From contig NZ_BJYS01000014.1 of NCBI RefSeq assembly GCF_007991635.1, positions 1 to 64,000 of the forward strand: a stretch of 64,000 nucleotides of DNA, given 5' to 3'. Shown here piece after piece: positions 35,204 through 53,388 of the stretch. The stretch's first letter is position 1; each line of letters opens with the position of its first letter. Source of the stretch: Adhaeribacter aerolatus. GTDB lineage: Bacteria > Bacteroidota > Bacteroidia > Cytophagales > Hymenobacteraceae. The position numbers and the translations under genes were made by a program. The notes under the pieces were generated by a model. That model had not been told where the DNA came from and did not search any database. It saw nothing but the letters and a program-made list of their open reading frames with translations.

Positions 35204-37057
35204 ATGCGCCAAAAGTTTTTCTTATTTATTTGCATAACCTTTTTCGCGGTCAGAATACTTTCGCCGGAAAAAGGATTGGCCCAAGCCCTGGCCAAATCAG
35301 TTTCCCAGGAAAAATTACCGGCACAAACCATTCATCTCACTGATTTAAAAGCTTTTAGTCCGGTTAAGAAAAAACAATGGCGCCTGGCCGGCCAAGTTTT
35401 TGCCGACCGTAAAAAGGATAAGCACCTGGAAATTAGCAGAGGGACGGGCATACTGGTATTGCAGCCGCAGCCGAAAAATACCCCTATCCAAACCAAACTG
35501 CAGCACGGCGATTTAGATCTGGAGCTGGATTTTTTATTAGCAAAAGGAACCGCTGCAGCTATTGCTTTACAAGGCCGGTATATTATTAATCTAAAAGATA
35601 GCTGGCTGCAAAACAATTTAACCGCTACCGATTGTGGTGGTATTTCGCAGGCAACCGGCGGCGTGGCTCCGGCCCTGAATGCTACCAAAGCACCGGGTTT
35701 ATGGCAGCACCTGCGCATTAGTTTTAAAGCGCCCCGGTTCGATGCCGCCGGCAAAAAAATTGCCAATGCCCAACTGATAGCCGTTGCTATAAACGGTAAA
35801 GTAGTGCAGCAAAATATTACGTTACCGGCTCCTTCGGCCAATGCACCTCATTCGAAGGAAAGAGCAACCGGCCCCTTTATGCTCTTAGGCAGCTCCGGGC
35901 CGGCGGCTTTTAGAAATTTAGAATATAAAGCTTACGCCGATCAGCGGCTGGTATTATCAACCATGCAGTACCAGTTGCACAAAGGCCGCTTCCGGGAACT
36001 GAATAAATTACCAACTACCGCCCCTATTAAATCCGGCCAAACGGACTCCCTATCGCACCGGTTGGGCGACGAAGATGAACTCTTAATTGTAGAAGGCGAA
36101 GTTGAGGCGCCACGCAGTGGTGATTATTTATTTCGGGTCGCAGCGGCCGGACCAACCTGGGTTTTTCTGGACAATAAATTAGTGGTAGAAAATAAAGGCA
36201 CCCGCGATTTTGAACGTTTTTTTTACGGAAGCACTAATTTAACGGCCGGCAAACACCCTTTTAAGGTTATTTTTTCGAACCACGATCAAAGCCTGGTGCT
36301 GGGGTACGAAGGGCCAAATATTCCCTGGACAACTTTAACCACCCCTACTTCTAAACGAAAAGTTTCGGGGCAGGAAAGCCTCTTGTTAACCGTTAAAAAA
36401 GAACCGATACTCCAGCGCGGATTTATGCTGCACCAGCAAGGTAAGAATGCTTATGCGATGGCGGTGGGCATGCCGGGCGGTATAAACTTTGCCTATGACC
36501 TAAATGCGTATACTCCATTGAGCGCCTGGCACGGCAACTTCCTGGATGTAGGGCTTATGTGGGTGGAACGCGGGGAAAAACAACTGGCACAACCCTTAGG
36601 TCCGGAATTACAATTTTCCGGTTTACCCACTATTACTACTTTAAGTGGGCAGGAAGCCGCCTGGCCCGACACCGTCCATCCCGACAGCAGTCCTTATGCA
36701 AAAAAAGGTTATCAGTTGCGGCCAAATGGGTTACCAGCCTTCTTTTATAACATAGCCAACGTTTCGGTAGAAGATTATATCGCCCCAACCGCTGCCCACG
36801 AAGGCTTAACCCGGGAGTTAACCGTGAAATCCGGCAACACCAGAGAGCCGATTTACTTGCTGCTGGCTAGTGGCGGCGATATCCAATTATTGCCAAACGG
36901 GAATTATGCCGTAGATAATAAACGCTATTACCTCGAAGATATCCAGTCTGGCAATATCAAACCCATTCTCCGGACCAGCAATGGCCAGACCCAATTGTTA
37001 TTACCGCTACCTGCCAGTGCTAACAGTACGCAGGTTAAATATTCCATTATTTGGTAG
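35204..37057 (+). CDS. Exported PA14-domain protein with N-terminal DUF1080-like sandwich
   Basis: This 617-residue protein has a signal peptide at about 1-27. Residues about 45-245 look like a 3-keto-disaccharide-hydrolase (DUF1080, GH16-like) beta-sandwich (WRLAGQVFADRKKDKHLEI, LDLELDFLLAKGTAAAIALQGRY, GLWQHLRISFKAPRFD). Residues about 250-385 are a PA14-like domain (RVAAAGPTWVFLDNKLVVENKG, GKHPFKVIFSN). The C-terminal 230 residues have GGINFAYDLNAYTPLSAWHGNFLDVG, a segment I associate with large exported proteins of Planctomycetes and Bacteroidetes that also carry propeller/heme modules. It ends 12 bp before the propeller-cupredoxin gene, so the two probably form an operon. Carbohydrate binding is likely; catalysis is unproven. 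Confidence 0.75.
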   Translation: MRQKFFLFICITFFAVRILSPEKGLAQALAKSVSQEKLPAQTIHLTDLKAFSPVKKKQWRLAGQVFADRKKDKHLEISRGTGILVLQPQPKNTPIQTKLQHGDLDLELDFLLAKGTAAAIALQGRYIINLKDSWLQNNLTATDCGGISQATGGVAPALNATKAPGLWQHLRISFKAPRFDAAGKKIANAQLIAVAINGKVVQQNITLPAPSANAPHSKERATGPFMLLGSSGPAAFRNLEYKAYADQRLVLSTMQYQLHKGRFRELNKLPTTAPIKSGQTDSLSHRLGDEDELLIVEGEVEAPRSGDYLFRVAAAGPTWVFLDNKLVVENKGTRDFERFFYGSTNLTAGKHPFKVIFSNHDQSLVLGYEGPNIPWTTLTTPTSKRKVSGQESLLLTVKKEPILQRGFMLHQQGKNAYAMAVGMPGGINFAYDLNAYTPLSAWHGNFLDVGLMWVERGEKQLAQPLGPELQFSGLPTITTLSGQEAAWPDTVHPDSSPYAKKGYQLRPNGLPAFFYNIANVSVEDYIAPTAAHEGLTRELTVKSGNTREPIYLLLASGGDIQLLPNGNYAVDNKRYYLEDIQSGNIKPILRTSNGQTQLLLPLPASANSTQVKYSIIW

Positions 37058-37069
37058 ACCAATCCTTTT

Positions 37070-39073
37070 ATGAAAATAAGATTTCACCACCTGCTACTAT
37101 TTTTTAGTTTTGCTTTATCGCCGCTATTAATTAAAGCCCAACAAGGAGATGCCGCCCGGGAAAGTAAATATTACGGAATTAAAAATGTACCCATTCCCGA
37201 TAGTGTGATGCTGGAGGTTGGCGGCATGGCTTTTACCCACGACGACAAGTTAGGCGTAGCTACCCGCCGCGGCGAAATCTGGGTAATAGAAGACCCGTAT
37301 GGTAAAAAGCTAAAAACGCCTAAATATACCAGGTTTGCCTCGGGTTTGCACGAACCTTTGTACCTGGCCTACCGCAACAATGCCTTTTATACCACCCACC
37401 GTTCGGAGCTAACCAAAATAACCGATACCGACCAGGACGGCAAAGCTGATTTATTTAAAACGATTTACGCCTGGCCTTTATCGGGCAATTACCACGAATA
37501 TTCTTACGGCCCCTTGTTTTTGCCCAATGGCGATATGCTGGTTAGTTTGAACCTATCGTGGATAGGCCGGGGTGCCAGTTTAACCAAATGGCGGGGCTGG
37601 ATGCTGAAGATAACCGAGAATGGTGAAATGTCGCCTTTTGCTACCGGGCTTCGCTCCCCAGCCGGCTTTGGCCTGAACGCCGCCGGCGATATTTTTTACG
37701 CCGAAAACCAGGGCGACTGGATTGGATCGGGTCGTATAACGCAACTGAACTTAGGTGATTTTGCCGGCAATCCTGCAGGATTACGCTGGTCTGGCGAACC
37801 TAATTCCCCGCTACAGCTTAAGCCCGAGATGTTCGCTGATTCCATTGGGTTGATGTATGATTTCGCCCAGAAACACGATAAAGTAAAGTTGCCCACCGTT
37901 TGGTTTCCTCATACTATTATGGGTATTTCAACATCAGCTATTCTGAATATTGATAATGATGCTTTTGGTCCGTTTAAAGGGCAAATGCTGGTGGGCGACC
38001 AAGGCCACAGCAAAGTAATGCGGGTATTCCTGGAAAAAGTTAACGGTGAATACCAGGGCGCCTGCTTCCCTTTCCGCGAAGGTTTTTCATCGGGCATTTT
38101 GCGCATGGCTTGGGGTAGCGATAATTCTTTATTTGTGGGCATGACCAGCCGGGGCTGGGCATCCACCGGTAAAGATTTGTACGGCCTGCAACGACTAACC
38201 TACAACGGTAAAACCCCTTTCGAAATGAAAGCCGTCCGCGCGCAAAAAGATGGCTTTGAAATAGAATTTACCCAACCCATTAACAAAATGCAGGCAGCCA
38301 GTTTGGCCAATTACCAGCTAAACAGCTTTACGTATGCCTACCACCGCACCTACGGCAGCCCCATAATTAATACATTAAGCTTGCCGGTTTCCAAAGCCGT
38401 TGTCTCGGGCGACGGAAAAAAGGTAAAAATTATGGTTAATGGCTTACGGGCCGGCTATATCCATGAACTAAAAATTAAAGGCTTGCAAAACCAAGCCGGA
38501 GAAGAACTGCTGCACCCGGTGGCTTATTACACCCTGAATAATATTCCGGGTGGCGGCGCCAACCACCACGACCACGCTGCTATGTTAGCTGCTCAAAAAA
38601 CTTCCACATCTACTAACGATAATTCTCCTTGCGGACCAGATGACAGTAAAAATATTTCGGTTCAGCCTGCCAATTGGACAAACGGCCCAGAAGTAACGAT
38701 TAATATTGGCACCAAACCCGGCCTGAAATTCGCGATTGAAAATTTTGAAGTACCCGAAGGCAGCCGCGTAAAACTGGTTTTCAACAATACCGACGATATG
38801 CTGCACAACCTGGTTATTGTTAAAAAAGGTAAGGCCGAGGCGGTTGGAAAAATGGCTATGGAGTTAGGCATCAACGGTTCTAAATTAGGTTACGTGCCGC
38901 CCTCACCAGATGTGCTATTTAATACTTGCCTGCTCCAACCAGAAACCTCCCAAAGCATTTATTTTACTGCTCCCAAAGCAGGAGATTACCCGTACGTTTG
39001 TACCTTTCCGGGTCATTATTTTGTAATGAAAGGAAACATGAAAGTAGTGCCGAGCGCTACTGGTAAGAAATAA
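37070..39073 (+). CDS. Exported beta-propeller dehydrogenase-like protein with C-terminal type-1 copper domain
   Basis: This 667-residue protein has a signal peptide at about 1-23. Residues about 45-390 form a propeller of the membrane-bound dehydrogenase / glucose-sorbosone-dehydrogenase-like type (GGMAFTHDDKLGVATRRGEIWVI, ITDTDQDGKADLFKTIYAWPLSGNYHEYSYGPLFLPNGD, GLRSPAGFGLNAAGDIFYAENQGDW, VGDQGHSKVMRVFLEK). An Ig-like linker follows (about 395-490). Residues about 550-660 are a plastocyanin/azurin-like cupredoxin with a full type-1 copper set: His579, Cys644, His649 and Met653. The propeller could oxidise a sugar-like substrate and pass electrons to copper; that is inference. It follows the PA14 gene by 12 bp and ends before a clear terminator. 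Confidence 0.83.
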   Translation: MKIRFHHLLLFFSFALSPLLIKAQQGDAARESKYYGIKNVPIPDSVMLEVGGMAFTHDDKLGVATRRGEIWVIEDPYGKKLKTPKYTRFASGLHEPLYLAYRNNAFYTTHRSELTKITDTDQDGKADLFKTIYAWPLSGNYHEYSYGPLFLPNGDMLVSLNLSWIGRGASLTKWRGWMLKITENGEMSPFATGLRSPAGFGLNAAGDIFYAENQGDWIGSGRITQLNLGDFAGNPAGLRWSGEPNSPLQLKPEMFADSIGLMYDFAQKHDKVKLPTVWFPHTIMGISTSAILNIDNDAFGPFKGQMLVGDQGHSKVMRVFLEKVNGEYQGACFPFREGFSSGILRMAWGSDNSLFVGMTSRGWASTGKDLYGLQRLTYNGKTPFEMKAVRAQKDGFEIEFTQPINKMQAASLANYQLNSFTYAYHRTYGSPIINTLSLPVSKAVVSGDGKKVKIMVNGLRAGYIHELKIKGLQNQAGEELLHPVAYYTLNNIPGGGANHHDHAAMLAAQKTSTSTNDNSPCGPDDSKNISVQPANWTNGPEVTINIGTKPGLKFAIENFEVPEGSRVKLVFNNTDDMLHNLVIVKKGKAEAVGKMAMELGINGSKLGYVPPSPDVLFNTCLLQPETSQSIYFTAPKAGDYPYVCTFPGHYFVMKGNMKVVPSATGKK

Positions 39074-39716
39074 AAGATTAGCATTTTACCTTTAGGTAAT
39101 AGGAAATATATTTAAAAACAAAAGCTTGGAATATTTCCCATGCTTTTGTTTTTTCCTCTGGATAGCCATAGCGGTTGCTATAAACTAATCTCCTAAATGG
39201 TATTCCACAAATGGCCAGTTTTATCTGTATATCTTTTAAAAGATTACATCTTTCAATGGGCAGGTGCTAACTGTCTTTACAGGTCTAAGAAGCCTCCCGG
39301 CCAGCGGGCCCCGTTTGGCCACTCGGGCCGCTCAACTTTCCTTTCCTCCTGCGTCGGAATGCTGCGCACCGTAAACTCAGAAGAGCATCTTCCAAAAGGC
39401 CCTCATCGCCCAAACTGCTGTCAGTTGCCAGTAGCTATTGCTATCTGATACGCATTCATTTTAAAAAATAATCCTCCTCGTAGCTAATGGGCAATGGTAC
39501 GGTTTGGCCGCAGTTTCTTCCCTAATTTATGGATGGTGCCCGGAGGGCGGAAGGGTTAATATCTTCCAAGAGAAAAGTAATTGCCAACCAATCAAGCAAA
39601 CAGCCGAAAAAGGAAAATGATTGATAAATTTTACTGTTTAATGGGCTAAAGAGAACTATTTATCCTAAATATTATTTGGACCAGATTTCTTGCCGAAAAC
39701 CTCAATCAAAATATTA
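39074..39716. other. Long spacer with terminator and a GC-rich patch
   Basis: This 643-bp region lies between convergent genes. It starts with the terminator at 39114-39153. A GC-rich patch near 39288-39385 contrasts with AT-rich flanks and contains GGGCCCCGTTTGGCC and a downstream GGGCCG. The only ORF there (39197-39448, 83 codons) has no recognisable protein character. The patch may be a repeat copy or gene remnant. Confidence 0.45.
39114..39153 (+). terminator. Rho-independent-type terminator
   Basis: AAAAACAAAAGC at 39114-39125 pairs with GCTTTTGTTTTT at 39142-39153, and inner bases TTGGAA/TTCCCA partly pair. The right arm ends in a T-run, as expected for a plus-strand terminator after the propeller-cupredoxin gene. 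Confidence 0.8.
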
Positions 39717-40883
39717 TTAATTAACAACTACTTTTTTGGTGGCTCGCCCAATGCCAAACTGATCACCCGCTTTAACTACTTTATTGCCGGCTAGTTGAAC
39801 TTCTACCATTTTCTCGCTGGCTACTTGGTTGTAAAACTCATCTTTCAGCGTCATCAGGATTTTACGGGTTTTAACCTCAATTACTTCCCCGCTCGATGGG
39901 TAAGCATATTTACCATCCATGCTAAAGGTTATCCAACCGGGCATATCCTGTAAAGCAATGGTGGTTAATTGCTGATAAGGTTTTTCGGCACTAAAAATAT
40001 GCAGGCGCATGTTATGGCCATCGGCCAGCCAAATTTCTTTTTCATCCGGCGTGAGGCCAATCCCATGACTCGGATTGCCGTGTCGCCGGACCGGACCTTT
40101 GTTCCAGCCTTCTACTATTACCCGGTCCAGGAACTTACCCGTCTTCAGGTCGGCTACTTCAAAACCCAGCAGGCTATCCACCGTCGCAAAAACCATCGTT
40201 TCATTATGGTTGATGGTAAAGGGGCGAATGCCATTACTAAAAGGACCTACCTTTTTCACAATCGTATGGGTTTTGGTATCGGCTACATGCAGCAACGGCG
40301 AAGCAATATCGGCTAAATAAGCGAAATCTCCGGAAGGACCATAAATGGTATTATGCGCCCGGCCCACTACTTCTATTTTCTTTAGCAACTTCCCTGTTTC
40401 GCAATCAACCACGTTCCAGAAAGTTTTCTCTAAAGAGGGAAGATACATGGTTTTACCATCCGGAGAAATGGCCATCCGGTCGGCGCCACCTTCGTAGGGT
40501 TTCTCCCACAATACCTTTTCGGTAGTGAGGTCTATGCGCTGTAGGGTACCCAATGTGCTGATATAAATACTATTAAGTGGCACGCTGACCGCTATTCCTT
40601 TCACGTTCGCTGGTTTACCGTTCCGGCTTAAGCCCTGGGTTTTAATGCGCTTCACAAATTTATGCCCATTATCCATATCAAAAACCAGCAAGCCGTGGCC
40701 GCCATAGCCCAGGTAATTACGGATTCCCGGCACAGCTACATATAAAAAACGTCCTGCCTTTGGGGCCAACCCTACAGTAGAGGCCTGCAGATTCAGCCAG
40801 GGGCTCCAGGCAAAATTAAATCCAAGCACCAGCCCGAAGAATATTAAAAATAAAATAGAAGTTTTTGCTTTCATAATTAACAT
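39717..40883 (-). CDS. Exported YncE-like beta-propeller protein
   Basis: This 388-residue protein begins with a signal peptide (start at Met1 or Met4, 40883 or 40874). It is a seven-bladed-type propeller with YncE/SMP-30-like blades: LYVAVPGIRNYLGYGGHGLLVFDMDNGHKF, ISTLGTLQRIDLTTEKVLWEKPYEGGADRMAISPDGKTMYLPS, GLTPDEKEIWLADGHNMRLHIFS and WITFSMDGKYAYPSSGEVIEVKTRKI. No catalytic residues or cofactor motif are apparent. Related proteins are exported, and many lie beside heme- or copper-containing dehydrogenases, as here. It is divergent from the cytochrome-containing propeller gene. A scaffold or ligand-binding role is possible; the function is unknown. Confidence 0.78.
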   Translation of the reverse strand: MLIMKAKTSILFLIFFGLVLGFNFAWSPWLNLQASTVGLAPKAGRFLYVAVPGIRNYLGYGGHGLLVFDMDNGHKFVKRIKTQGLSRNGKPANVKGIAVSVPLNSIYISTLGTLQRIDLTTEKVLWEKPYEGGADRMAISPDGKTMYLPSLEKTFWNVVDCETGKLLKKIEVVGRAHNTIYGPSGDFAYLADIASPLLHVADTKTHTIVKKVGPFSNGIRPFTINHNETMVFATVDSLLGFEVADLKTGKFLDRVIVEGWNKGPVRRHGNPSHGIGLTPDEKEIWLADGHNMRLHIFSAEKPYQQLTTIALQDMPGWITFSMDGKYAYPSSGEVIEVKTRKILMTLKDEFYNQVASEKMVEVQLAGNKVVKAGDQFGIGRATKKVVVN

Positions 40884-41312
40884 CAGTTTAAAGCATCAGG
40901 TAGAATACTTCTTAAATATACAAAGTATGTTCTTTAATTTTTGAACTTCATGGATATAACAGCCCAGGACAAAACAAAATCTGAAAACCAGGAAAGCCAA
41001 CTTTAAATAATAGATGTCATTTACCAACTGGTAGTTATTTGTAAATGCTACCATTACTATAATATAATTTTAATCCGAACAAATATATCAGCGCCTGTTA
41101 TTATTTGTATATTGCTTTAGTAGCCAAGCCTTAATGAAGGCTATGGAAAAACTTACCAGGCATAAATCTCAAGAATTATCATTTTCAATTCTGACCTGCT
41201 GACTTTAGAAGAGGAAACGCATAGGTTGGAGAAACCAGCATCCGAAAGGGTATTGAAATAGCGAACTGGGTAATTCTACCAGGTAATACTAAAGTAGCAA
41301 ATATCAGGATTT
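40884..41312. other. Divergent intergenic region, no recognised element
   Basis: This 429-bp AT-rich region lies between the YncE-like gene (minus) and the cytochrome-propeller gene (plus). I see no exact -7 box, strong hairpin or ORF. Confidence 0.5.
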
Positions 41313-43880
41313 ATGATAAATCACCTTTATCAGTTTTGCTTGATTTATATTTGCCTGCTGGGCCTGGTTGGCTGCACCACTAAACCTGGCAATATTTTAG
41401 AGGAAGGACCCTCCCCCGCCCAAACACCCGCCCAAGAGTTAACAACTTTTAAACTAGAACCCGGTCTAAAAATTCAGCTGGTGGCGGCAGAGCCCCTGGT
41501 ACAAGACCCGGTAGTTATAACTTTTGATGCCGATGGACGACTCTGGGTGGTGGAAATGCGGGGATTTATGCCGGATATAAATGGCACGGGAGAAAAAGAA
41601 CCCATTGGCCGGATTTCGGTGCTGACCGATTCAGATGGCGACGGGAAAATGGATGCCAGCCGGATTTTTCTCGACAGCCTGGTAATGCCCAGAGCCCTGG
41701 CCCTGGTGCCGGGCGGAGCCTTGGTGGCCCATAACGAAGCGCTTTGGCTGGCGGAGGATTTTAACCACGATCTGAAAGCAGACAAAATTACTTTAATTGA
41801 TAAAGATTATGCCGGTAGTCCTTTGCCGGAGCACGCCGGCAATGGTTTATGGCGAGGCCTGGATAATTGGTACTATAATGCTAAATCCAGGTACCGGTAC
41901 CGGCTGCAAGCCGGTAAGTGGGTACGCGACAGCACCGAGTACCGGGGCCAGTGGGGTATCAGCCACGACGACGAAGGCCGTTTATACTACAACTACAATT
42001 GGTCGCAGTTGCACGCTGACCTGGTTCCGCCCAACTATCTTTCCCGAAACAAAAATCATCGCCCCACCACCGGCATCGATCACGGCCTCACCATCGACCG
42101 GCGTATATATCCTATCCGTCCGAATCCGGCCGTAAACCGGGGCTATATTCCGGGTACGCTCGATGAGGCTGGCCGTTTGCGTGAGTTTACCGCGGCCTGT
42201 TCTCCCCTATTTTACCGCGGCACCGCTTTGCCACCGGCGTATTACGGCAATGTCTTCGTATGTGAGCCATCGGGTAACCTGATTAAAAGGAATTTAGTGA
42301 CAGAAGCGGATTTACTTCTTTCGGCAAAGGATCCGCATCCGGGAACCGAATTCCTGGCTTCTACCGATGAACGGTTCCGGCCGGTTCACCTGGCTACTGG
42401 TCCGGATGGGGCGCTATATATTGCAGATATGTACCGGGGATTGGTGCAGCATGGCGCTTATATTACCCCTTACCTGCGGGAACAAACCCTCTCCAGGAAA
42501 TTGGTACAACCCATTAACCGGGGGCGCATCTGGCGGGTGGTGCCGGAAAACTGGCAACCCACCAGTTCAGCCAAACTTTCCGGTTTATCGGCCGGAGAAT
42601 TGGTTCCCTACTTATCGCACCCCAATGGCTGGCACCGGGATATGGCGCAACGGCTGTTGGTGGAGCGGAATGACCAGGACATTATCCCGGCTTTGACCCA
42701 AATGGCTTTAACCGGCAAAAGTGAGTTTGGCCGGTTACATGCCCTTTGGGCGTTGGCCGGTATGCAAGTAAACAGCCCGGAGGTATATTTTAAAGCTTTA
42801 GATGATGGCAGCCTGCTAATACGAACCTCCGCTTTACGATTACTGGAACCGCTGGCCAGGGAAAATAAAAATATCCGCTCAAATTTAGGAACCAGGCTGA
42901 TGGGCGAATGGGAGAATACGCCTATCAAACAGATATTACAAACCGCCCTCACGGCCCGGGTACTTGAACCAGAAATTTCGCATCAATTGTTAGCCGGGAT
43001 TTCCGAAAAATACAACCACTTGCCCTTAATGCGGGATGCAATACTGAGTAGTTTGGATGACCAGGAATTTGTTTTTTTAGAACGCCTCTGGAAATTACCC
43101 GGCTGGCAAATTGCCACACCAGGTAAAGAAATATTCCTGGAGATGCTGGCCACCGCTATTATCCGCAAGCACGAATCAGCTGAACTGGCTTCCTTACTGG
43201 CTTTATTAGAGCAGCCGGACCAAAATAAGAAAGCTTATTTTGGCTGGCAACACAAAGCGGTCCTCACCGGGTTATCGATGGGAGGCCTGAATAAACAGGA
43301 ACCTATGCAGCTAACTTCCGCCCCGGCAATATTTAAGCAGGCTGCCGGTAAACTAGATGCCAGCAGGTTAGCCGCTGTAACGGACTTATTTAGGTGGCCC
43401 GGCCATAATGCTGCGGTTAATATTACCCAGCAAAAGAATATTTTAAACGAAGAACAACAACAGCAGTTTGCCCTGGGCCGACAGCATTACCTTACCTCCT
43501 GCGCCGGTTGCCACAGTACCAATGGCGCGGGCATGAGCCGGTTTGCACCGCCACTCGTAGGCTCCGATTGGGTTTTGGGGGATGAAAAACGTTTGGCTTT
43601 AATCCTATTACATGGCCTGGAAGGGCCCGTAGAAGTAGCCGGCAAAATTTATGATGCGCCGGAAATTCTGCCGGTAATGCCTGCCCATTCTACCCTGGAT
43701 GATGCCACGATAACAGCAATTTTAACTTATATTCGGAACGAATGGGGCAACCAAGCCGGGCCAGTAGGAAAACGCACCGTAGGTAGCACACGCAACACTT
43801 CCCAGGGCCGGGTTAGCCCCTGGAAACCAGATGAACTGAATAATTATATTAGCCAATCCAAAAACATAGAAAGTAAATAA
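41313..43880 (+). CDS. PVC-type heme-binding CxxCH lipoprotein (propeller + HEAT + cytochrome c)
   Basis: This 855-residue lipoprotein has the lipobox GLVGC (Cys21). Residues about 45-420 form a membrane-bound-dehydrogenase-type propeller (LEPGLKIQLVAAEPLVQDPVVITFDADGRLWVVEMRGF, DSDGDGKMDASRIF, HLATGPDGALYIADMYRGLVQHG). HEAT-like helical repeats span about 430-700, with RLHALWALAGM and related segments. A C-terminal cytochrome c domain holds the heme motif CAGCH (730-734); Met789 is a probable axial ligand. This matches the family called PVC-type heme-binding CxxCH proteins. It likely takes electrons from a sugar-like substrate in the periplasm. It is followed at 72 bp by a Tat-type sugar isomerase gene and then an SDR gene on the same strand. 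Confidence 0.9.
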   Translation: MINHLYQFCLIYICLLGLVGCTTKPGNILEEGPSPAQTPAQELTTFKLEPGLKIQLVAAEPLVQDPVVITFDADGRLWVVEMRGFMPDINGTGEKEPIGRISVLTDSDGDGKMDASRIFLDSLVMPRALALVPGGALVAHNEALWLAEDFNHDLKADKITLIDKDYAGSPLPEHAGNGLWRGLDNWYYNAKSRYRYRLQAGKWVRDSTEYRGQWGISHDDEGRLYYNYNWSQLHADLVPPNYLSRNKNHRPTTGIDHGLTIDRRIYPIRPNPAVNRGYIPGTLDEAGRLREFTAACSPLFYRGTALPPAYYGNVFVCEPSGNLIKRNLVTEADLLLSAKDPHPGTEFLASTDERFRPVHLATGPDGALYIADMYRGLVQHGAYITPYLREQTLSRKLVQPINRGRIWRVVPENWQPTSSAKLSGLSAGELVPYLSHPNGWHRDMAQRLLVERNDQDIIPALTQMALTGKSEFGRLHALWALAGMQVNSPEVYFKALDDGSLLIRTSALRLLEPLARENKNIRSNLGTRLMGEWENTPIKQILQTALTARVLEPEISHQLLAGISEKYNHLPLMRDAILSSLDDQEFVFLERLWKLPGWQIATPGKEIFLEMLATAIIRKHESAELASLLALLEQPDQNKKAYFGWQHKAVLTGLSMGGLNKQEPMQLTSAPAIFKQAAGKLDASRLAAVTDLFRWPGHNAAVNITQQKNILNEEQQQQFALGRQHYLTSCAGCHSTNGAGMSRFAPPLVGSDWVLGDEKRLALILLHGLEGPVEVAGKIYDAPEILPVMPAHSTLDDATITAILTYIRNEWGNQAGPVGKRTVGSTRNTSQGRVSPWKPDELNNYISQSKNIESK

Positions 43881-43952
43881 TTTAAACCAGAAATAATATT
43901 CCTTAAAATAAAAGTATATTATACCAGGCCACCTAATAAATCAAGCTTAAAG

Positions 43953-45011
43953 ATGCACCGAAGAGATTTTTTGCAGAAGGCAGCCGCCGGAACAATGGTT
44001 CTGGCTTTACCCGAAGTAAATGGCTTTTTTAAGGACAGGCCTATGGGGGTGGTGGTGCATTCTTATGGCCAACGGTGGCAATCTAAACTTAACAGCCCCA
44101 AATACCCGGGCTTTAAAGATGCGCTAGACCTTCTGGAGCATTGCCATACTTTGGGCGCCGGCGGGGTGCAGGTAATAGTAAAAGACTGGACCCCTGACTT
44201 TGCTAAAAAGTTGAACCGCCGGCGGGAGAAACTGGGTATGTACCTGGAAGGCTCTATTGCGGTACCGCAAGATAGAAGTGATGTTGGTCGTTTTGACCAG
44301 GAAATAAAAAATGCCAAAGCAGCGGGCGTCCATGTTCTCCGGACGGTATGCTCCTCCGGTCGCCGTTACGAAAATTATCACTCCGAAGCCGCTTTCCGGG
44401 AATTGCAGCAAAAAGCCCTGGCTTCGCTGCAATTAGCAGAACCTGTTTTGCAGCAGCATAAAATGAAATTGGCGCTAGAAAACCACAAAGACTGGCTGGC
44501 TAATGAGCTGGTAGCGATGCTTAAAAAACTGGACAGTCCCTGGATAGGTGTAACCCTTGATTTTGGAAACAGCATTGCTTTGCTGGAAGACCCGAATACA
44601 GTTATCCAAACTTTGGTACCTTATGTTTTCTCGACGCATGTAAAAGACATGGCCCTGGAGGAATATGCCGATGGTTTTTTATTATCGGAGGTGCCGCTGG
44701 GTAAAGGAATTCTGGACCTGCCCCAAATTATTGCACTTTGTAAGAAACACAATCCGGAGGTAACTTTTAACCTCGAAATGATTACCCGTGACCCACTGGA
44801 AATACCCTGCCTGAAAGAAAATTATTGGCCAACGTTGGGCGGGGTAACCGGAGCCGAACTGGCCCGGGCGCTCCGGCAGGTGCGGCAGCACCAATATGCC
44901 CCGGGTTTGCCCCGGGTTTCGCATTTAACACCCGAAGAGCGACTGGTGGTGGAGGAGCAGAATATTAACGCTTGTCTGGAATATAGTAAAAACACTCTAG
45001 CATTAAAATAA
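43953..45011 (+). CDS. Exported sugar phosphate isomerase/epimerase-like TIM barrel protein
   Basis: This 352-residue protein starts with a Tat-like signal (HRRDFLQKAAAGTMVLALPEV). The rest is a xylose-isomerase-like TIM barrel (AP_endonuc_2, PF01261): LEHCHTLGAGGVQVIVKDWTPDFAKKL, MKLALENHKDWLANELVAMLKKLDSPWIGVTLDFGN, YVFSTHVKDMALEEYADGF and VTFNLEMITRDPLEIPC. The Glu/Asp/His/Glu pattern along the barrel fits a divalent-metal site. Members isomerise, epimerise or, in some cases, act on 3-keto-sugars; the substrate here is unknown. Export together with an oxidising heme protein encoded just upstream suggests it acts on a periplasmic oxidised sugar, which is inference. The next gene begins 17 bp later. 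Confidence 0.82.
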   Translation: MHRRDFLQKAAAGTMVLALPEVNGFFKDRPMGVVVHSYGQRWQSKLNSPKYPGFKDALDLLEHCHTLGAGGVQVIVKDWTPDFAKKLNRRREKLGMYLEGSIAVPQDRSDVGRFDQEIKNAKAAGVHVLRTVCSSGRRYENYHSEAAFRELQQKALASLQLAEPVLQQHKMKLALENHKDWLANELVAMLKKLDSPWIGVTLDFGNSIALLEDPNTVIQTLVPYVFSTHVKDMALEEYADGFLLSEVPLGKGILDLPQIIALCKKHNPEVTFNLEMITRDPLEIPCLKENYWPTLGGVTGAELARALRQVRQHQYAPGLPRVSHLTPEERLVVEEQNINACLEYSKNTLALK

Positions 45012-45028
45012 AAATCAGAACCGACCAA

Positions 45029-45814
45029 ATGGGTACAACAATCCTCCCGGGAATAAAACAGTTTGATTTAAGCGGCAAATCTGCAATAATAACGGGTGGC
45101 TCCAAGGGCCTGGGCCTGGCAATGGCGGCCGGTCTGGCATCGGCCGGGGCTAACGTTATGCTGGTAAACAGAAATGCGGCCGAAGGTGCCTTGGCCGCTG
45201 AACAATTAAGGGCATCTTATGGTACCACAGCTCTTTCGTTCGGGGCCGATATTACCAGCCAGGAACAAACCGAAGCCATGGCGGCCGCCGCAATGGAAGC
45301 TTTTGGGCAAATAGATATTTTAATTAACAGCGCCGGCATTAATATCCGCGGCCCGATTGATGAACTAACCCCGGCTGAATTTAACCAGGTGATGGCGGTA
45401 AATGTAAACGGGACCTGGCTCTGTTGCCGGGCCGTTACGCCTTACCTGAAAAAAGCCGGAGGCGGCAGCATTATTAACCTGGCCAGCACCCTCGGACTGG
45501 TTGGGCTGGCAAACCGGACCCCTTATACGGCCAGTAAAGGCGCCGTGGTGCAGATGACCCGTGCCCTTGCCCTGGAACTTGCCCCTTATAATATTAAGGT
45601 AAATGCCATCTGCCCGGGACCATTTTTAACCGAAATGAATATGCCTATTGCCGATACCGAAGAAGGAAAAAAGTTTGTGGTAGGCGCTACCGCCCTGGGC
45701 CGCTGGGGAGAAATGCGGGAAATCCAGGGCGCGGCTATTTTCCTGGCCAGCGATGCCGCCAGTTACATGATCGGTTCTATGCTTACGGTTGACGGTGGCT
45801 GGACCGCCCGTTGA
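45029..45814 (+). CDS. SDR-family oxidoreductase (gluconate 5-dehydrogenase-like)
   Basis: This 261-residue cytosolic protein has the classical SDR layout: NAD(P) motif TGGSKGLG (22-29), NSAG (100-103) and catalytic Ser153, Tyr166 and Lys170 in NLAS and PYTASK, followed by VNAICPGPFLTEM. Its opening (GIKQFDLSGKSAIITGGSKGLGLAMA) resembles gluconate 5-dehydrogenase / 2-deoxy-D-gluconate 3-dehydrogenase enzymes, which oxidise or reduce sugar acids. The convergent neighbour is a GntP-type sugar-acid permease, which agrees. The exact substrate cannot be read from sequence. It is the last of three plus-strand genes. Confidence 0.87.
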   Translation: MGTTILPGIKQFDLSGKSAIITGGSKGLGLAMAAGLASAGANVMLVNRNAAEGALAAEQLRASYGTTALSFGADITSQEQTEAMAAAAMEAFGQIDILINSAGINIRGPIDELTPAEFNQVMAVNVNGTWLCCRAVTPYLKKAGGGSIINLASTLGLVGLANRTPYTASKGAVVQMTRALALELAPYNIKVNAICPGPFLTEMNMPIADTEEGKKFVVGATALGRWGEMREIQGAAIFLASDAASYMIGSMLTVDGGWTAR

Positions 45815-45858
45815 TTATTTTATTCGGGCAGCCGCTGCGGTTCGAGGTTTTTTTAACC

Positions 45859-47187
45859 TCAGATAAAAAAAGTAATAATATAAATCAACACAATTGATGA
45901 CAGGGCCAGGATTAAAGTGCCCAGGCTGTGGGTTTGATTTCCCACCTTTATATTCATGCCGGTAAGCTGGGTCATGGCCCAGAAAAAACTGTCGTTGGCA
46001 TGCGAAATAGCAATAGCCCCTGCCCCAATGGCCAGAACGGCAAACACCCGTAAAGTTTCGGTATCCAGCCCCAAAGCCGGCAACAGCGGTGCCACAATCG
46101 AAGCCGTGGTAATCATAGCCACCGTTGAAGAACCCTGGGCCGTTTTTAAGGCCAGTGCCATCAGGAACGGCAATAAAAGTCCCCAGTTGGCGCCACTCAG
46201 GTTGTTGGTTACCAATTCGGCAATGCCGGAATTCTGCAACATCTTGCCGAAAACGCCGCCCGCCCCGGTAATTAAAATAACCGGGGCTGCCACCATTAAC
46301 GAATCGCCAATCCAACCGGTCGAGGATAAAAGCTGCCGGTCAAACTTTTCCGGTAGCGCAAAAGACATGAATACGCCCAGCAGCAAGGCAATTACGGGGT
46401 TCCCCATAAAAGTTAAAATGGAAGTAAAGGTATTCTGGCCAAAAGGATGGGAAGGATAACTGGCAATGGAGGCAAGCACAATTAATAACAAAGGAACAAT
46501 AATGGGTAAGGCTGCTTTTCCTAAGGAAGGATATTTTTTTATTTCGGCGGTATCTGCACCCGGAACAAAAAGCGGCTCCAGATGGAACCTGGTAACGTAA
46601 TACTTAACAAAAAAGAAACAAGGAATCAAAGCCACAGAACTAACAATAATGCCCCAGAAAATTACCATTCCCAAATTCGCCCCCAGAATACCGGCAGCAG
46701 CAATCGGCCCGGGTGTAGGCGGCACCAAGGAATGGGTAGCCGTGACCCCTAATGTTAAAGCCACCGTAGTTGCGGCGTAAGGCAATTTCCCTTTTATCGC
46801 CAGTGATTTACTGATGGGGTTCATCATAATAAAGGCACTGTCTCCAAAAACAGGTATGGACAATATCCAACCGGTAATCATCATAGCCAGCAGCACCGAT
46901 TTTTCGCCGATCCAGGCTAAAACCCGAAGCGCAATAACAAAGGCGCCACCGGTTTTTTCCAGGAAAGTACCAATAATAACCCCAAGCAAGATAACTAATC
47001 CTATTTTTCCGAGGACGCCCCCAAAACCATCAGTAATAGAGGTGAGAATCAGATCCGGCGACATGCCAGCTAGTAAACCATAAACAATAGCTCCTACAAA
47101 CAGCGCCAGAAAAGGATGAATATCATACTTAATTATTGCAATAATAATTAAAGCCAACGCGAATAAAACAGTCAGGGCAAGAAGCAT
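45859..47187 (-). CDS. GntP-family sugar-acid permease
   Basis: The 442-residue inner-membrane protein is almost wholly hydrophobic, with about 12-14 segments. It begins LLALTVLFALALIIIAIIKYDIHPFLALFVGAIVYGL and has the typical GntP segments SIPVFGDSAFIMMNPISKSLA, GVTATHSLVPPTPGPIAAAGILG, ALALKTAQGSSTVAMITTASI and ISHANDSFFWAMTQLTGM. GntP permeases import gluconate or related aldonates with protons. It lies between an SDR gene and the AraD1/dehydratase block, so the substrate is probably an aldonate fed to those enzymes. Confidence 0.93.
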   Translation of the reverse strand: MLLALTVLFALALIIIAIIKYDIHPFLALFVGAIVYGLLAGMSPDLILTSITDGFGGVLGKIGLVILLGVIIGTFLEKTGGAFVIALRVLAWIGEKSVLLAMMITGWILSIPVFGDSAFIMMNPISKSLAIKGKLPYAATTVALTLGVTATHSLVPPTPGPIAAAGILGANLGMVIFWGIIVSSVALIPCFFFVKYYVTRFHLEPLFVPGADTAEIKKYPSLGKAALPIIVPLLLIVLASIASYPSHPFGQNTFTSILTFMGNPVIALLLGVFMSFALPEKFDRQLLSSTGWIGDSLMVAAPVILITGAGGVFGKMLQNSGIAELVTNNLSGANWGLLLPFLMALALKTAQGSSTVAMITTASIVAPLLPALGLDTETLRVFAVLAIGAGAIAISHANDSFFWAMTQLTGMNIKVGNQTHSLGTLILALSSIVLIYIITFFI

Positions 47188-47428: not shown

Positions 47429-48445
47429 ATGACTACCACTTCTATCCGGTTGGTTCAGATTATGCATCCGCAGTTGGGGCGGCAGGTGGGCCTGGTGCAG
47501 GAACCTTTTCTGGTATTGCTACAGCAGGTGCGTTCGGTTTATAATTTAGCTTTAGAAGCGATTAACACAAAAAATAAAGTTGCGGCAATTATTCAATCGC
47601 GTTTGTCCGCAGAAACGCTGGATTATGATGCGGTTTACCAGGGCCTTTCCGACTGGCGGCTGCTCCCGGCTTTTGACCACCCGGAGAACCCAATGAATTG
47701 TATTGTTTCGGGTACCGGACTTACGCATAAAAACAGCGCATTAAACCGCCAGATGATGCACCAGGCTGCAACAGATAAACCCACCGATAGCATGCAGATG
47801 TACCTATGGGGATTAGCTGGCGGACAACCCGAAGCCGGAACTGTTGGTGTACAACCGGAATGGTTTTACAAAGGGATTGGGGCCATGCTGCGGGGCCACA
47901 GCGAAACCTTGGAAGTACCTTCTTACGCCAACGATGGCGGCGAAGAACCGGAAATTGCCGGGGCTTACCTCGTAGATTCCGAAGGCTATCCCTGGCGCAT
48001 AGGTTTTTGTACCGGCAATGAGTTCTCGGATCACGTGATGGAGAAAAAAAATTACCTGTACCTCGCTCCTTCTAAATTGCGAACCTGTGCTATAGGTCCG
48101 GAATTAGTTTTAGACACCAACTTCCAGGATATTTCGGGCAGCGTGCGCATCTTACGAAATAAAGAAATAATCTGGTCTAAGGAAATAAAAACCGGTGAGA
48201 AAAACATGGCCCACAGCCTGCAGAATTTAGAACATCACCATTTCAAATACGCGGGTCACCGGGTTCCCGGACAGGCGCACGTTCATTTTTACGGAGCCGA
48301 TGCTTTCAGTTTTGGCGAAAAGGTACAATTGCAATCCGGCGATATTATAGCTATTGAATGGGCCGGATTGGGACGCTCCTTACTAAACCCAATTAAAGTG
48401 GCTGCCGAAAAAGAAGAACTGGTGCAGGTAAAATCTATTACCTAA
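47429..48445 (+). CDS. AraD1/GguC-family protein (FAH superfamily)
   Basis: The 338-residue cytosolic protein belongs to the fumarylacetoacetate-hydrolase-like superfamily, in the group named AraD1 or GguC. Visible segments are GKGxGAMLRG-like YKGIGAMLRGHSETLEVPSYANDGGEEPEIAGAYLVDSEG near 150-190 (Glu residues that could hold a divalent metal), GFCTGNEFSDHVMEKKNYLYLAPSKLRTCAIGPEL near 197-231, and GDIIAIEWAGLGRSL near the end. FAH-type relatives dehydrate or hydrolyse 2-keto-3-deoxy sugar acids, the products of IlvD/Edd dehydratases. An IlvD-type dehydratase gene lies about 5 kb away, which fits one pathway. The precise reaction is not shown by sequence. Confidence 0.78.
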   Translation: MTTTSIRLVQIMHPQLGRQVGLVQEPFLVLLQQVRSVYNLALEAINTKNKVAAIIQSRLSAETLDYDAVYQGLSDWRLLPAFDHPENPMNCIVSGTGLTHKNSALNRQMMHQAATDKPTDSMQMYLWGLAGGQPEAGTVGVQPEWFYKGIGAMLRGHSETLEVPSYANDGGEEPEIAGAYLVDSEGYPWRIGFCTGNEFSDHVMEKKNYLYLAPSKLRTCAIGPELVLDTNFQDISGSVRILRNKEIIWSKEIKTGEKNMAHSLQNLEHHHFKYAGHRVPGQAHVHFYGADAFSFGEKVQLQSGDIIAIEWAGLGRSLLNPIKVAAEKEELVQVKSIT

Positions 48446-49859: not shown

Positions 49860-50759
49860 TCAATTTATTGAATTTTCAGGCCAGAATTCAACTATTTTTT
49901 TGCGCAAAAAGGTAACGCTGCGTTCCAGTTGGTCCATGCCCTCTACCCCATCTTCAATGCTGATCCAGCCATTAAAGCCGACACGTTTTAATTCAGTAAA
50001 AATTGCATTGTAATTGTTCAGGCCTTTTCCAATTTCGCCGTGCCGGAGCCGCCTGGCGTAGCCGGACGCACCACCTTCCTCTCGTCGTAAATCTTCCAGG
50101 GTACCTTCTATTAAATAGCGGTCGCTGGCGTGCATGGTAACTACCCGGTCCGAAACCCGCCTCAATAATTCCAAGGGATCTTCGCCGGCTAAATAGGTAT
50201 TGCTGGGATCGTAGTTTACGCCGAAATTCTGGTGCGGCAAGCGGTCTACCAAATCACAAAAAACGTCCATCTTTTGGGCGAATTCCGGGTATTCCCAAAA
50301 GTCGTCTTTATAATGATTTTCGATAATAAGCGTAATGTCCCGCTCCTGCGCATAAGGCAAACACGCGTTGATGCAATCAGCGGCCAGTTGAATACCCGCT
50401 TCAACACTCAGTTCCGGCCGGCGCTGACCGGAGAGCACCCGGCAATAAGTGCAACCCAGCGCCTGCGCCATATCAATCCAGTGTTTCTGTTTGGCTATTT
50501 CCTTGTCCCGGAAAGCTTTATCAGGATGCGTGAAATCCGGGGAGCAGCAGAGCATGGGAATTACTTTGCCCTTTTCTTCCACCTGTTGGCGAAAGAGCAG
50601 CCAGTTTGCTTCATCGGCCATCTCCAGAAATCCTGCATACCACTCTAACCCATCAATATCCAGTTCTGTAGCTAAATCTATCCATTCGGAAACCCGCATG
50701 GTACCGTCTTTACAAAGGGCCTGCATAAAAGCTTTGGGAAAAGCAGCGAGTTGGGGCAT
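49860..50759 (-). CDS. Sugar phosphate isomerase/epimerase-like TIM barrel protein (cytosolic)
   Basis: This 299-residue protein has no signal peptide and an AP_endonuc_2-type TIM barrel: LATELDIDGLEWYAGFLEM, DITLIIENHYKDDFWEYPEFAQKMDVFCDLVDRL, FGVNYDPSNTYLAGEDPLELLRRV, RVVTMHASDRYLIEGTL and FNGWISIEDGVEG. The Glu, Asp, His and Glu in these strands match the usual metal site. It is the last of four closely spaced minus-strand genes (decarboxylase-like, ADH, SDR, isomerase), so it probably interconverts a keto-sugar intermediate of that pathway. It differs from the exported paralogue-like protein at 43953 in lacking a signal. Confidence 0.84.
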   Translation of the reverse strand: MPQLAAFPKAFMQALCKDGTMRVSEWIDLATELDIDGLEWYAGFLEMADEANWLLFRQQVEEKGKVIPMLCCSPDFTHPDKAFRDKEIAKQKHWIDMAQALGCTYCRVLSGQRRPELSVEAGIQLAADCINACLPYAQERDITLIIENHYKDDFWEYPEFAQKMDVFCDLVDRLPHQNFGVNYDPSNTYLAGEDPLELLRRVSDRVVTMHASDRYLIEGTLEDLRREEGGASGYARRLRHGEIGKGLNNYNAIFTELKRVGFNGWISIEDGVEGMDQLERSVTFLRKKIVEFWPENSIN

Positions 50760-50824
50760 AATAATATTTAATAGGATGAGAAATATTGTACGTAAATGCG
50801 TTTAGTTGATGCCGTATCGAATCT

Positions 50825-51628
50825 TCACTTGGTAGTAGTTGCTAGCGTGGAAGTATCTTTGGGTGGATTGCGCCCCTGTAACGGATATTGCTCCAGATCC
50901 ACCACCTGACCGCTGATGGGGCCGCTTTCATCGGCCAGCCAATATACGGCGGCAGCGGCTATCTCGGCGGGCCACAAAATCCGGCCGGCTGGTGCAAATA
51001 CCGGTGGCACCGCTTCGTACCAGTTTTCCGCCAGGCCCTGCTCCTGCTTACGTTGCGCTTCTTTTTCAGTCAGCACCCAACCCGGATTAATTTGGTTTAC
51101 CCGTACCCGGTTTTCGCGGTGCAAGGTATCGCCAAGGTTGCGGGTTAAAGTCTGAAGAGCACCCTTCGAAATGCTATAGGCCAGTAGATTCGGTTCGCCG
51201 CTCCAGGCATTCACCGATCCAATATTGAGGATACAGCCACGGGTTCGGGAAAGATGGGGCAAAGATTCTTTAATAAGCATGAAGGGAGCCACGGTATTCA
51301 CCTCCAGCACCCGGCGCAAAAACTCCGCATCTGTGCTATTAATATCCGAAGACACCACCATAGCCGCATTATTAACTATAGCATCCAGTTTGCCAAAAGC
51401 CGCCAAAGCTAAAGCCACCAATTGTTCCGGGGCATCAGAGTCTGTAAGGTCCTGGATGTGCAGCCGGGCATTTTCCGGACCTAAACTTTCTACTACGGCT
51501 TCGCCTAAGTACGGCTCCAGCCCGTGAATGATAACTTTTGCGCCTTCGGCCACACAGCGCTCTGCAATAGCTTTGCCAATGCCGGTGCAACTGCCAGTTA
51601 TAATAATTACTTTATCCTGGAGGCGCAT
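50825..51628 (-). CDS. SDR-family oxidoreductase
   Basis: The 267-residue protein shows TGSCTGIG (11-18), NNAA (86-89), catalytic Ser138, Tyr151 and Lys155 (YSISK), and VNQINPGWV after the active site. This is the classical SDR pattern; the NNAA form instead of NNAG is a minor change. It follows the zinc alcohol dehydrogenase gene by 3 bp, so the two are surely cotranscribed. It is probably an NAD(P)-dependent sugar or sugar-acid dehydrogenase; the substrate is unknown. Confidence 0.88.
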   Translation of the reverse strand: MRLQDKVIIITGSCTGIGKAIAERCVAEGAKVIIHGLEPYLGEAVVESLGPENARLHIQDLTDSDAPEQLVALALAAFGKLDAIVNNAAMVVSSDINSTDAEFLRRVLEVNTVAPFMLIKESLPHLSRTRGCILNIGSVNAWSGEPNLLAYSISKGALQTLTRNLGDTLHRENRVRVNQINPGWVLTEKEAQRKQEQGLAENWYEAVPPVFAPAGRILWPAEIAAAAVYWLADESGPISGQVVDLEQYPLQGRNPPKDTSTLATTTK

Positions 51629-51631
51629 GGC

Positions 51632-52657
51632 TCAGACGGGTTTCAGCACACTTTTTACCACTTCGCCCCGGTGCATTTTCTCAAAAGCTTCATGCCATTC
51701 GGTAATTGGCCAAACGCCCCCTATTATAGGTTTTACATCTAAAGTCCCGCTGGCAAGCAAAGCCAGAACCCGCTCCCAAATGGGCCAATTGTGGCTGAAG
51801 CTACCTTGCAATGTTACATTCTTTTGCACCAGGGGGTCGAGGGAAAAATTCAGCGGCTGCGGGCCCCACCCTACCTTGGTAATGTGGCCGTTGGGCCGAA
51901 CCAGTTGCAGGGCAATATTTAAGGTAGCACTCACTCCGGCCGCATCTATGATACAATCAGCTCCTAAGCCATCGCGCTGTTTAGCCCATTCTGTAGCCTC
52001 CCGGATAATCGGTACGCAGCCGTATTGCGCCGCAATTTCTAAACGGTTTTGGTCAGCTTCTAAACCTACAATAGCAACTTCGGCCCCGCACAAGCGGGCT
52101 ACGGCTGCACACAATATGCCAATGGTACCCGGCCCCAGCACTACCACGCGGTCGCCGGGCCTGATACGGGAGTTTTCTACTACGGCATTATAGGCCACAC
52201 TGCAAGGCTCGGTGAGGCAAGCTTGTTCAAAAGATAAGGTGTCAGGCACCTGGTGGAGGCAACGGGCCGGCACCCGGACAAAGCGGGTCATGGCGCCATT
52301 AACGCCGTAGCCAAAACCTTTGCGGGTAGGATCGAGGTTATAAAGCCCCCGGCGGCACAAGGGATTATTGGGATCGATAACCGCTGCCGTTTCGCTTACG
52401 ACCCGGTCCCCTTCTTTCCAACCCACTACCCGGCTGCCTACTTCCGCAATGTGCCCACCAAATTCATGACCCAGCACTACTGGGTAATTCACCGGCCAGC
52501 TGTGGTCGGCGGTCCATTGGTGCAGATCGCTGCCGCAAACGCCCACGTTGGCCACTTCTAACAGTACATCGTCTTCTCCAATGGTGGGTTTAGGAATTTC
52601 CCGGATCTCAACGGAGCCTTTTTCCGGGGCATAGTTTACAACGGCAGCTGATTTCAT
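51632..52657 (-). CDS. Zinc-type medium-chain alcohol dehydrogenase lacking most structural-zinc cysteines
   Basis: The 341-residue protein is of the threonine / L-iditol dehydrogenase type. The catalytic zinc ligands are Cys41, His64-Glu65 (GHEFGGH) and Glu150, and the NAD-binding motif is VVVLGPGTIGIL near 171-182. The lobe that normally holds four cysteines for structural zinc (about residues 90-112) has only Cys101 (DPNNPLCRRGLYNLDPTRKGFGYG), so that zinc site is lost. It is the second gene after the decarboxylase-like gene, 23 bp downstream of it, and 3 bp before the SDR. It probably oxidises a polyol or sugar hydroxyl. Confidence 0.88.
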   Translation of the reverse strand: MKSAAVVNYAPEKGSVEIREIPKPTIGEDDVLLEVANVGVCGSDLHQWTADHSWPVNYPVVLGHEFGGHIAEVGSRVVGWKEGDRVVSETAAVIDPNNPLCRRGLYNLDPTRKGFGYGVNGAMTRFVRVPARCLHQVPDTLSFEQACLTEPCSVAYNAVVENSRIRPGDRVVVLGPGTIGILCAAVARLCGAEVAIVGLEADQNRLEIAAQYGCVPIIREATEWAKQRDGLGADCIIDAAGVSATLNIALQLVRPNGHITKVGWGPQPLNFSLDPLVQKNVTLQGSFSHNWPIWERVLALLASGTLDVKPIIGGVWPITEWHEAFEKMHRGEVVKSVLKPV

Positions 52658-52680
52658 AAGGCAAAGAATATTTTAAATAT

Positions 52681-53388
52681 TTAAACCTGGCCCACCGGAA
52701 CATCGCCGTAGGCATGAATTTTTTCGCATATCAACCGCAGCGAGCTTTCCAGGTCCCCGTCCGCAGTGCGAAAGGCATCGGCATCTATCGTGAGCGGCGC
52801 ACCGAGTACTACTAGTGGGGCACCGTATTCCGGACAGCGAATGGCTTGTTCCAGCGAAAGGCCACCCACCGCCTGCACCGGCACCTGAACCGCCTGCACC
52901 ACTTCGCGCAATTGGTCCAGCGGACTGGGCATCCGTTGGCCTTGGGCAGCAATACCCCGGCGTTCGTCGTAGCCAATGTGGTGAATTACATAATCGCAGC
53001 CCAAATCCTCCAGCCATTTAGCGCCGGCTACCATGTCCGGACAAACCATGTTATCACCCATAACCTTCACCCCAAAATCGCGACCCGCCTGTACCACACA
53101 TTTTATGGTTTCGGCGTGGGCGCGGGCCATTACCACCACGTGGGTAGCCCCGGCTTTGGCCATCATTTCGGCCTCCAGGTAGCCGCCATCCATGGTCTTC
53201 AAATCAGCTACCAACGGCACTCCCGGAAAAGCTTCCCGTAACTTCCGGACGCCGTGCAGCCCTTCCGCGAGAATCAAAGGTGTACCTACCTCCAGCCAGT
53301 CCACCCCGGCGCGCATAGCTAAGGCCGCGGTTTCCAGTGCTTCGTCAATATTGGTTAGGTCGAGGGATATTTGCACAACTGGTTTCAT
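52681..53388 (-). CDS. OMPDC/HUMPS-family decarboxylase-like protein
   Basis: With the start at 53388 (a longer start at 53433 adds 15 residues that do not fit the family) the protein has 235 residues. It begins MKPVVQISLDLTNIDEAL, and has ADLKTMDGG near 61-69, the Asp-x-Lys-x-x-Asp motif (Asp62, Lys64, Asp67) of the orotidine-monophosphate-decarboxylase suprafamily. VQAVGGLSLEQA near 180 is the phosphate-loop region. Relatives include 3-keto-L-gulonate-6-phosphate decarboxylase and hexulose-6-phosphate synthase. No phosphohexuloisomerase or sugar-phosphate-specific partner is adjacent; its neighbours are an ADH, an SDR and an isomerase. The substrate is therefore open. Confidence 0.82.
   Translation of the reverse strand: MKPVVQISLDLTNIDEALETAALAMRAGVDWLEVGTPLILAEGLHGVRKLREAFPGVPLVADLKTMDGGYLEAEMMAKAGATHVVVMARAHAETIKCVVQAGRDFGVKVMGDNMVCPDMVAGAKWLEDLGCDYVIHHIGYDERRGIAAQGQRMPSPLDQLREVVQAVQVPVQAVGGLSLEQAIRCPEYGAPLVVLGAPLTIDADAFRTADGDLESSLRLICEKIHAYGDVPVGQV

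Follow-up and report, generated by a model that had tools for sequence, protein, structure and literature searches.

A putative exported carbohydrate-oxidizing system with interchangeable copper and heme ends, and a separate PVC-type cassette beside it, in Adhaeribacter aerolatus

We analyzed a stretch of 64,000 nucleotides, here called the window, from contig C14 of the genome of the soil bacterium Adhaeribacter aerolatus. Genes for glycan degradation are abundant throughout the window around two propeller genes, both on the forward strand, one encoding a protein that ends in a copper domain (37070 to 39073; the copper protein) and the other a protein that ends in a cytochrome c (41313 to 43880; the heme protein). 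Both open reading frames are intact; the initial annotation had given their coordinates and the four copper ligands exactly, and its view that both proteins are exported is borne out by a Sec signal in the copper protein and a lipobox (LVGC) in the heme protein, both assigned by eye. Between them, on the reverse strand, lies a gene for a YncE-like propeller (39717 to 40883) with weak matches to PF21783 and NHL. A promoter and terminator scan of the region gave no signal clearly over chance. Elsewhere in the window, positions 175 to 16809 hold a cluster of sialic acid type (GH20, a sialidase-like BNR protein, a SASA esterase, a NanM-like kelch protein, a member of the DHDPS family, and SusC/SusD). 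A further SusD homologue (23823 to 25307) is split by one in-frame stop into an N-terminal half (23823 to 24785, PF14322) and a C-terminal half (24819 to 25307, PF07980) in the same frame, through nonsense mutation, sequencing error or recoding. Genes of sugar acid type occupy 49860 to 56601 (IlvD/EDD dehydratase, OMP decarboxylase/HUMPS family, zinc alcohol dehydrogenase, SDR and TIM barrel), adjoined by GguC/AraD1 at 47429 to 48445.

Fold, copper ligands, gene pairing, exchange of ends, module shuffling and the independence of the two cassettes were all shown by computation. The copper protein is modeled as a six-bladed propeller (37172 to 38221), an Ig-like domain (38222 to 38545) and an azurin- or auracyanin-like cupredoxin (38708 to 39046), with a pLDDT of 90.0 for the AF2 model built from a 74-sequence alignment. 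The cupredoxin matched PF00127 at 33.5 bits against a cut-off of 21.2, and the nearest fold of the C-terminal part was auracyanin 6kol, at 36% identity. His579, Cys644, His649 and Met653 (38804 to 39028) form the His-Cys-His-Met ligand set of a type-1 blue copper site within a cupredoxin fold. Conservation among relatives agrees with the complete site first proposed: His579 is present in all 85 aligned cupredoxin-ended relatives, and the other three ligands in all 83 that are untruncated at that end.

The propeller of the copper protein has a fold of the GSDH type. Its VIA-align ranks 1 to 16 were all PQQ sugar dehydrogenases or close kin (Z 27.6 to 29.5, rmsd 2.6 to 3.4 over 287 to 323 residues); the next group reached Z 24.1 (HHIP and Diels-Alderase), with SMP30 and lactonase propellers at about 24. 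Profile-profile comparison with GSDH (PF07995) gave a probability of 97.3 and an E value of 2e-11. A Pfam profile search with the copper protein yielded no GSDH match above cut-off, and its score against DUF7133 (12.6 bits, under the cut-off of 27) leaves it outside the PVC-type family (TIGR02604/DUF7133). Among its relatives, 58 of 74 matched DUF7133 and 11 of 74 matched GSDH (Pfam, E<=0.01). Judged by these profiles, the copper protein is a distant sister of the PVC-type family, outside it by profile cut-off.

Twelve base pairs upstream of the copper gene ends the gene of an exported partner protein (35204 to 37057, forward strand). The initial annotation had described it as a PA14 protein, and PA14 is present (36080 to 36292; PF07691, 35.9 bits); the full protein also contains an N-terminal DUF1080 domain (35414 to 35923; PF06439, 53.3 bits versus a cut-off of 26.8) and a C-terminal domain, detected with a profile of our own, which we call domain X (36356 to 37054). 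In 78 of 80 related loci from Bacteroidota and Rhodothermota (Rhodothermales), all but L026 and L031, a gene bearing domain X precedes the copper gene in the same orientation, and the gaps between the two genes are mostly below 130 bp. No other neighbor was found at comparable frequency in these 80 loci, where only lineage-specific housekeeping genes are otherwise conserved. Eight loci (L050, L052, L063, L065, L071, L075, L076 and L082) have a conserved open reading frame of about 364 amino acids between the X and propeller genes. DUF1080 occurs in most partners, and both it and PA14 are optional. The partners in 13 Pedobacter loci consist of domain X alone (244 to 262 amino acids); since DUF1080 is missing from these, it was ruled out as the invariant partner, and the constant element is domain X rather than DUF1080 or PA14.

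Most partner DUF1080 domains keep the N-S-G and Q-G-D-H-G motifs, which are lost in the window copy and in that of the sister species. The window DUF1080 reads AAA and LLGSSG at the conserved N-S-G and Q..H sites, and so does not carry the motifs of a 3-keto-disaccharide hydrolase. The genome as a whole has 23 DUF1080 domain matches, and the three with the lowest scores are those fused to domain X.

Domain X is predicted to be a galactose-mutarotase-like supersandwich (AF2 pLDDT 91.9). VIA-align, in agreement with Foldseek, groups it with supersandwich domains (Z 9.6 to 11.4) found in enzymes of families GH38, GH65 and GH2 and in polysaccharide lyases; the modeled fold is one common in carbohydrate enzymes. 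It also resembles the P1 domain of YidC (Z 10.9), and because the fold occurs there too, sugar binding by domain X is likely rather than proven. Domain X appears to be distantly related to DUF6797 (PF20601): the window copy gave no match to that profile, and 19 of 76 relatives matched weakly at E<=0.1 (best 6.6e-5).

The electron-transfer end of this propeller family is exchangeable. Another contig of the same genome (C62) has a DUF1080-X gene followed by a propeller of the copper type (47 to 50% identity) that ends in a CLACH cytochrome c. We collected 10 such heme-ended members from 10 genomes, all with a DUF1080-X gene upstream; because the search patterns behind the 80-locus set included cupredoxin, heme-ended members are under-sampled in it. 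In a tree of the propellers, rooted by a single outgroup, they form one clade (SH-aLRT 99), so a single switch is the simplest count, with cytochrome c probably taking the place of cupredoxin. The copper-for-heme exchange within the copper protein's own propeller family is real, and the two electron exits on one propeller type described in the initial annotation do exist in other copies of the same genome, though not in the pair for which they were proposed. The PVC family shows an exit swap of its own: a 1,199-amino-acid PVC-type propeller protein on contig C3 (L099, 6613 to 10212) has a cupredoxin end in place of the cytochrome.

The modules themselves are shuffled among loci. A DUF1080-PA14-X protein is paired with a propeller-cupredoxin in the window, X alone with a propeller-cupredoxin in the 13 Pedobacter loci, DUF1080-X with a propeller-cytochrome c (contig C62; L223), and a cupredoxin-X protein with a propeller standing alone in two genomes (contig C15 of our own and G034; L098 and L224). 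Cytochrome c, DUF6797 and propeller are joined in one fused chain in the four such proteins that were read; here DUF6797 was placed by coordinates between the CxxCH motif (residue about 76 to 97 in three of the four, residue 184 in the fourth) and the propeller, which starts at about residue 470 to 590. The shuffling and the fused chain are Rosetta-stone evidence for what would be one three-part redox unit. Directly upstream of a second DUF1080-X and propeller-cupredoxin pair, contig C2 also encodes a 1,124-amino-acid protein with a GSDH domain and a CxxCH motif (L096, 2670 to 6044).

Cupredoxin- and heme-ended proteins largely share their candidate active-site residues. At H94, E95, R111, E113, H142, R195, Q214, D310, R318, R361 and W363, every aligned sequence of both groups has the same residue, and N213 is likewise invariant across the intact copper and heme family (alignment A1 and its extension); N140, E212 and H281 vary. 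By eye, E49, H94/E95, H142, R195 and the mostly conserved H281 sit at the inner end of one blade after another, and this conserved center could be a metal or quinone site. The Arg of the GSDH R-N-P motif aligns with the invariant R195, and the invariant His142 falls one residue off the GSDH catalytic His in hhalign, a one-residue ambiguity. The GSDH loops for calcium and PQQ (NYGW, DExN and R-N) are replaced in this family, R228-N229 becoming R-S. PqqC was not detected in the A. aerolatus genome or, above cut-off, among 39 genomes, and PQQ biosynthesis genes were accordingly dropped as support for a PQQ enzyme. PQQ might be taken up from outside, even with PqqC undetected; from the altered loops, classical use of PQQ by the copper propeller looks doubtful. 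A literature search found no paper on PQQ together with cupredoxin and propeller proteins.

On balance, we favor the reading that the genes at 35204 to 37057 and 37070 to 39073 encode one exported three-part system for carbohydrate oxidation, and that 41313 to 47187 encodes an independent system of broadly similar type. Domain X would bind or present the carbohydrate, and the GSDH-type propeller would oxidize it where the central channel opens, taking two electrons. The cupredoxin would accept these singly and pass them to the respiratory chain, a role that a cytochrome c on the same propeller may fill in some relatives. Catalysis, the carbohydrate substrate and the direction of electron flow are inferred, sugar oxidation by the heme protein included.

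The propeller might instead be a hydrolase, a lactonase or a binding scaffold, with the cupredoxin or cytochrome serving as an electron shuttle or metal carrier. SMP30 and lactonase propellers do match it as well, and the altered cofactor loops and the lack of a detected pqqC fit such a function. The GSDH-type matches, however, stand 3.5 to 5 Z units above the lactonases, and the exit is always a one-electron carrier, with copper and heme swapped on the same propeller, which is hard to explain without electron flow; we regard this possibility as rather unlikely. An equally unlikely proposal is a narrower version of the favored one, in which the copper propeller would be a C3-dehydrogenase and DUF1080 an extracellular 3-keto-glycoside hydrolase or lyase, much as LacABC acts with DUF1080 in Caulobacter (PMC9007349). 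Most loci have DUF1080 in the partner, many copies keeping the NSG and QGDHG motifs, and PVC-type proteins also pair with DUF1080, as at L100, where the gene before that of a PVC-cytochrome protein encodes DUF1080. This route is at odds, however, with the DUF1080-free partners of Pedobacter and with the loss of the motifs in the window and sister copies. That the substrate is an alcohol, an aromatic compound or a metal ion rather than a carbohydrate is more improbable still, given the GSDH-type fold, the supersandwich partner with its DUF1080 and PA14 domains and the wealth of glycan-degradation genes in the window.

The heme protein is the first gene of a different cassette. It comprises a propeller of the DUF7133/PVC type (41427 to 42548; DUF7133 E 2.4e-93, 314 bits versus a cut-off of 27), a HEAT-like region (42600 to 42782) and a class I cytochrome c (43470 to 43739; PF00034, 34.3 bits versus 21.3) with CAGCH at 43500 to 43514, starting at residue 730. 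TIGR02604 at 196 bits (cut-off 122.2) makes it a clear PVC-type member. The heme end is thus as first read, with HEAT_2 below its cut-off. There follow, on the forward strand, a xylose-isomerase-like TIM barrel (PF01261; 43953 to 45011), apparently Tat exported (twin Arg by eye; the NCBIfam TAT domain just under cut-off), and an SDR resembling gluconate 5-dehydrogenase (45029 to 45814); a divergent gene for a permease of the GntP (gluconate) family lies on the reverse strand (45859 to 47187), these last two being assigned by profile match and synteny. The same PVC-TIM-SDR order with a divergent or adjacent GntP gene occurs in two genomes of another family (L189 and L190; identities of 52 to 54% for PVC, 52 to 57% for TIM, 72 to 77% for SDR and 63 to 64% for GntP), with no copper protein within the 18 kb read. 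PVC-TIM-SDR also recurs in the genus, and at L225 to L227 the TIM gene adjoins the PVC gene.

GntP and the gluconate dehydrogenase-like SDR hint at uptake of an aldonate or keto-sugar, and the cassette, with its PVC-type propeller, cytochrome c exit, TIM-barrel enzyme, SDR and importer, would probably oxidize an extracellular sugar or glycoside, and the cell would take up the resulting sugar acid or keto-sugar. We considered the TIM protein as a 3-keto-glycoside beta-eliminase of the AtOGE/PuCGE kind (PMC10628242), since its E-N-H...D...H...E pattern fits by eye. This assignment was dropped: the other TIM protein of the window also has E-N-H, and the PDB search gave only a weak match to Art22.

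The propellers of the copper and heme proteins had been taken as one broad type, which holds at the level of the GSDH superfamily and not below it. Profile-profile comparison of the two gave a probability of 90.9 and E 1.2e-6, and the heme-protein propeller matched GSDH at 96.7 (E 3.3e-10), so that both are closer to GSDH than to each other; BLASTP found no similarity between them (best E 0.16), and they belong to different subfamilies. Genome comparison across eight genomes of the genus, ours included, separates the two further. The sister species, Adhaeribacter rhizoryzae (G001, L016), has the copper protein at 95% identity and no PVC orthologue. Because its alignment with the window covers 35342 to 40754 and resumes at 49879 to 55795, the block from 40.75 to 49.88 kb is wholly missing there; this block of about 9 kb holds the PVC, TIM, SDR, GntP, GguC and saccharopine dehydrogenase-like genes, and about 0.4 kb separates its flanks in the sister genome. 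Five other genomes have a PVC orthologue (67 to 71%) but a copper-protein copy of only 53 to 56%, and one that is 78% complete (G007) has neither. Only A. aerolatus, one of eight, has both. The copper and heme genes are thus neighbors through chance events in the history of the genome.

The initial annotation had joined the two proteins, as alternative exits for the same oxidation, with the YncE-like propeller in a single periplasmic redox module; the genes are neighbors and both propellers are of the GSDH superfamily, but the different subfamilies, the separate partners (domain X versus TIM-SDR-GntP), the block missing from the sister genome and the co-occurrence in one genome make this very improbable. 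Membership of the YncE-like gene fares no better: the sister species (L016, L228) was the sole other case in which it adjoined the copper protein, and it stands outside the conserved module.

Several known systems bear on these two. The copper propeller is like soluble PQQ glucose dehydrogenase and aldose sugar dehydrogenase (1qbi, 2ism, 3a9g and 2g8s) in its six-bladed fold (Z 27.9 to 29.5), in profile homology and, apparently, in the conserved Arg of R-N-P-Q-G and a conserved His near the catalytic His. It differs in its PQQ and calcium loops, in an invariant H94-E95 within an insertion, in the undetected pqqC and in having a fused cupredoxin or cytochrome and the partner X. Fungal AA12 pyranose dehydrogenases (6jt5 and 6i1t), which oxidize pyranoses with PQQ and have a cytochrome b domain as partner, have a similar fold (Z 27.6 to 28.0). 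The AA12 enzyme CcPDH combines a propeller, an electron-transfer domain and a carbohydrate module, a plan that resembles the copper system, which differs in its cupredoxin or cytochrome c exit and in carrying the carbohydrate-type domain X on a separate protein. DUF6797 proteins resemble the copper system in an apparent distant relationship to domain X and in the joining of cytochrome c, DUF6797 and propeller in a single chain, and differ from it in domain order and electron-transfer domain; the literature searched gave no function for DUF6797.

The heme protein is itself a PVC-type CxxCH protein (TIGR02604; PF23500, DUF7133), and its TIGR02604-HEAT_2-Cytochrom_C layout is that of verrucomicrobial Lac161_ORF7, for which glucose release from lactose was reported, the assayed protein having been produced in E. 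coli BL21(DE3) after induction with IPTG (PMC5342196). The PVC propeller profile had no match at E<=0.1 among PDB sequences. E. coli BL21(DE3) is lac+, and a LacZ contaminant is therefore a worry for the Lac161_ORF7 assay. The 3-keto-glycoside route of Caulobacter, with LacABC and DUF1080, establishes extracytoplasmic sugar oxidation beside DUF1080 as a real strategy (PMC9007349). In the system proposed here, oxidation would likewise take place outside the cytoplasm and in the company of DUF1080; its putative dehydrogenase, however, is unrelated to LacABC, and DUF1080 is optional and, in the window, degenerate.

Tentatively, and with less confidence than in the oxidation of carbohydrate as such, we suggest that the copper-protein family may represent an undescribed class of extracytoplasmic sugar-oxidizing systems in Bacteroidota and Rhodothermota, built from three exchangeable parts, namely domain X, a GSDH-type propeller with a changed E-H/E-H-R-H center and a copper or heme exit, possibly using a cofactor other than PQQ and having switched between copper and heme in evolution. 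Propeller proteins that end in a cytochrome or a copper domain and have no known function are numerous in Bacteroidota genomes. The pair of domain X and propeller, with the copper-heme swap inside one genome, offers a direct way to test the sugar-dehydrogenase role, the cofactor and a link between habitat and choice of exit. If active on glycosides, such systems would provide an oxidative route of glycan breakdown alongside hydrolysis.
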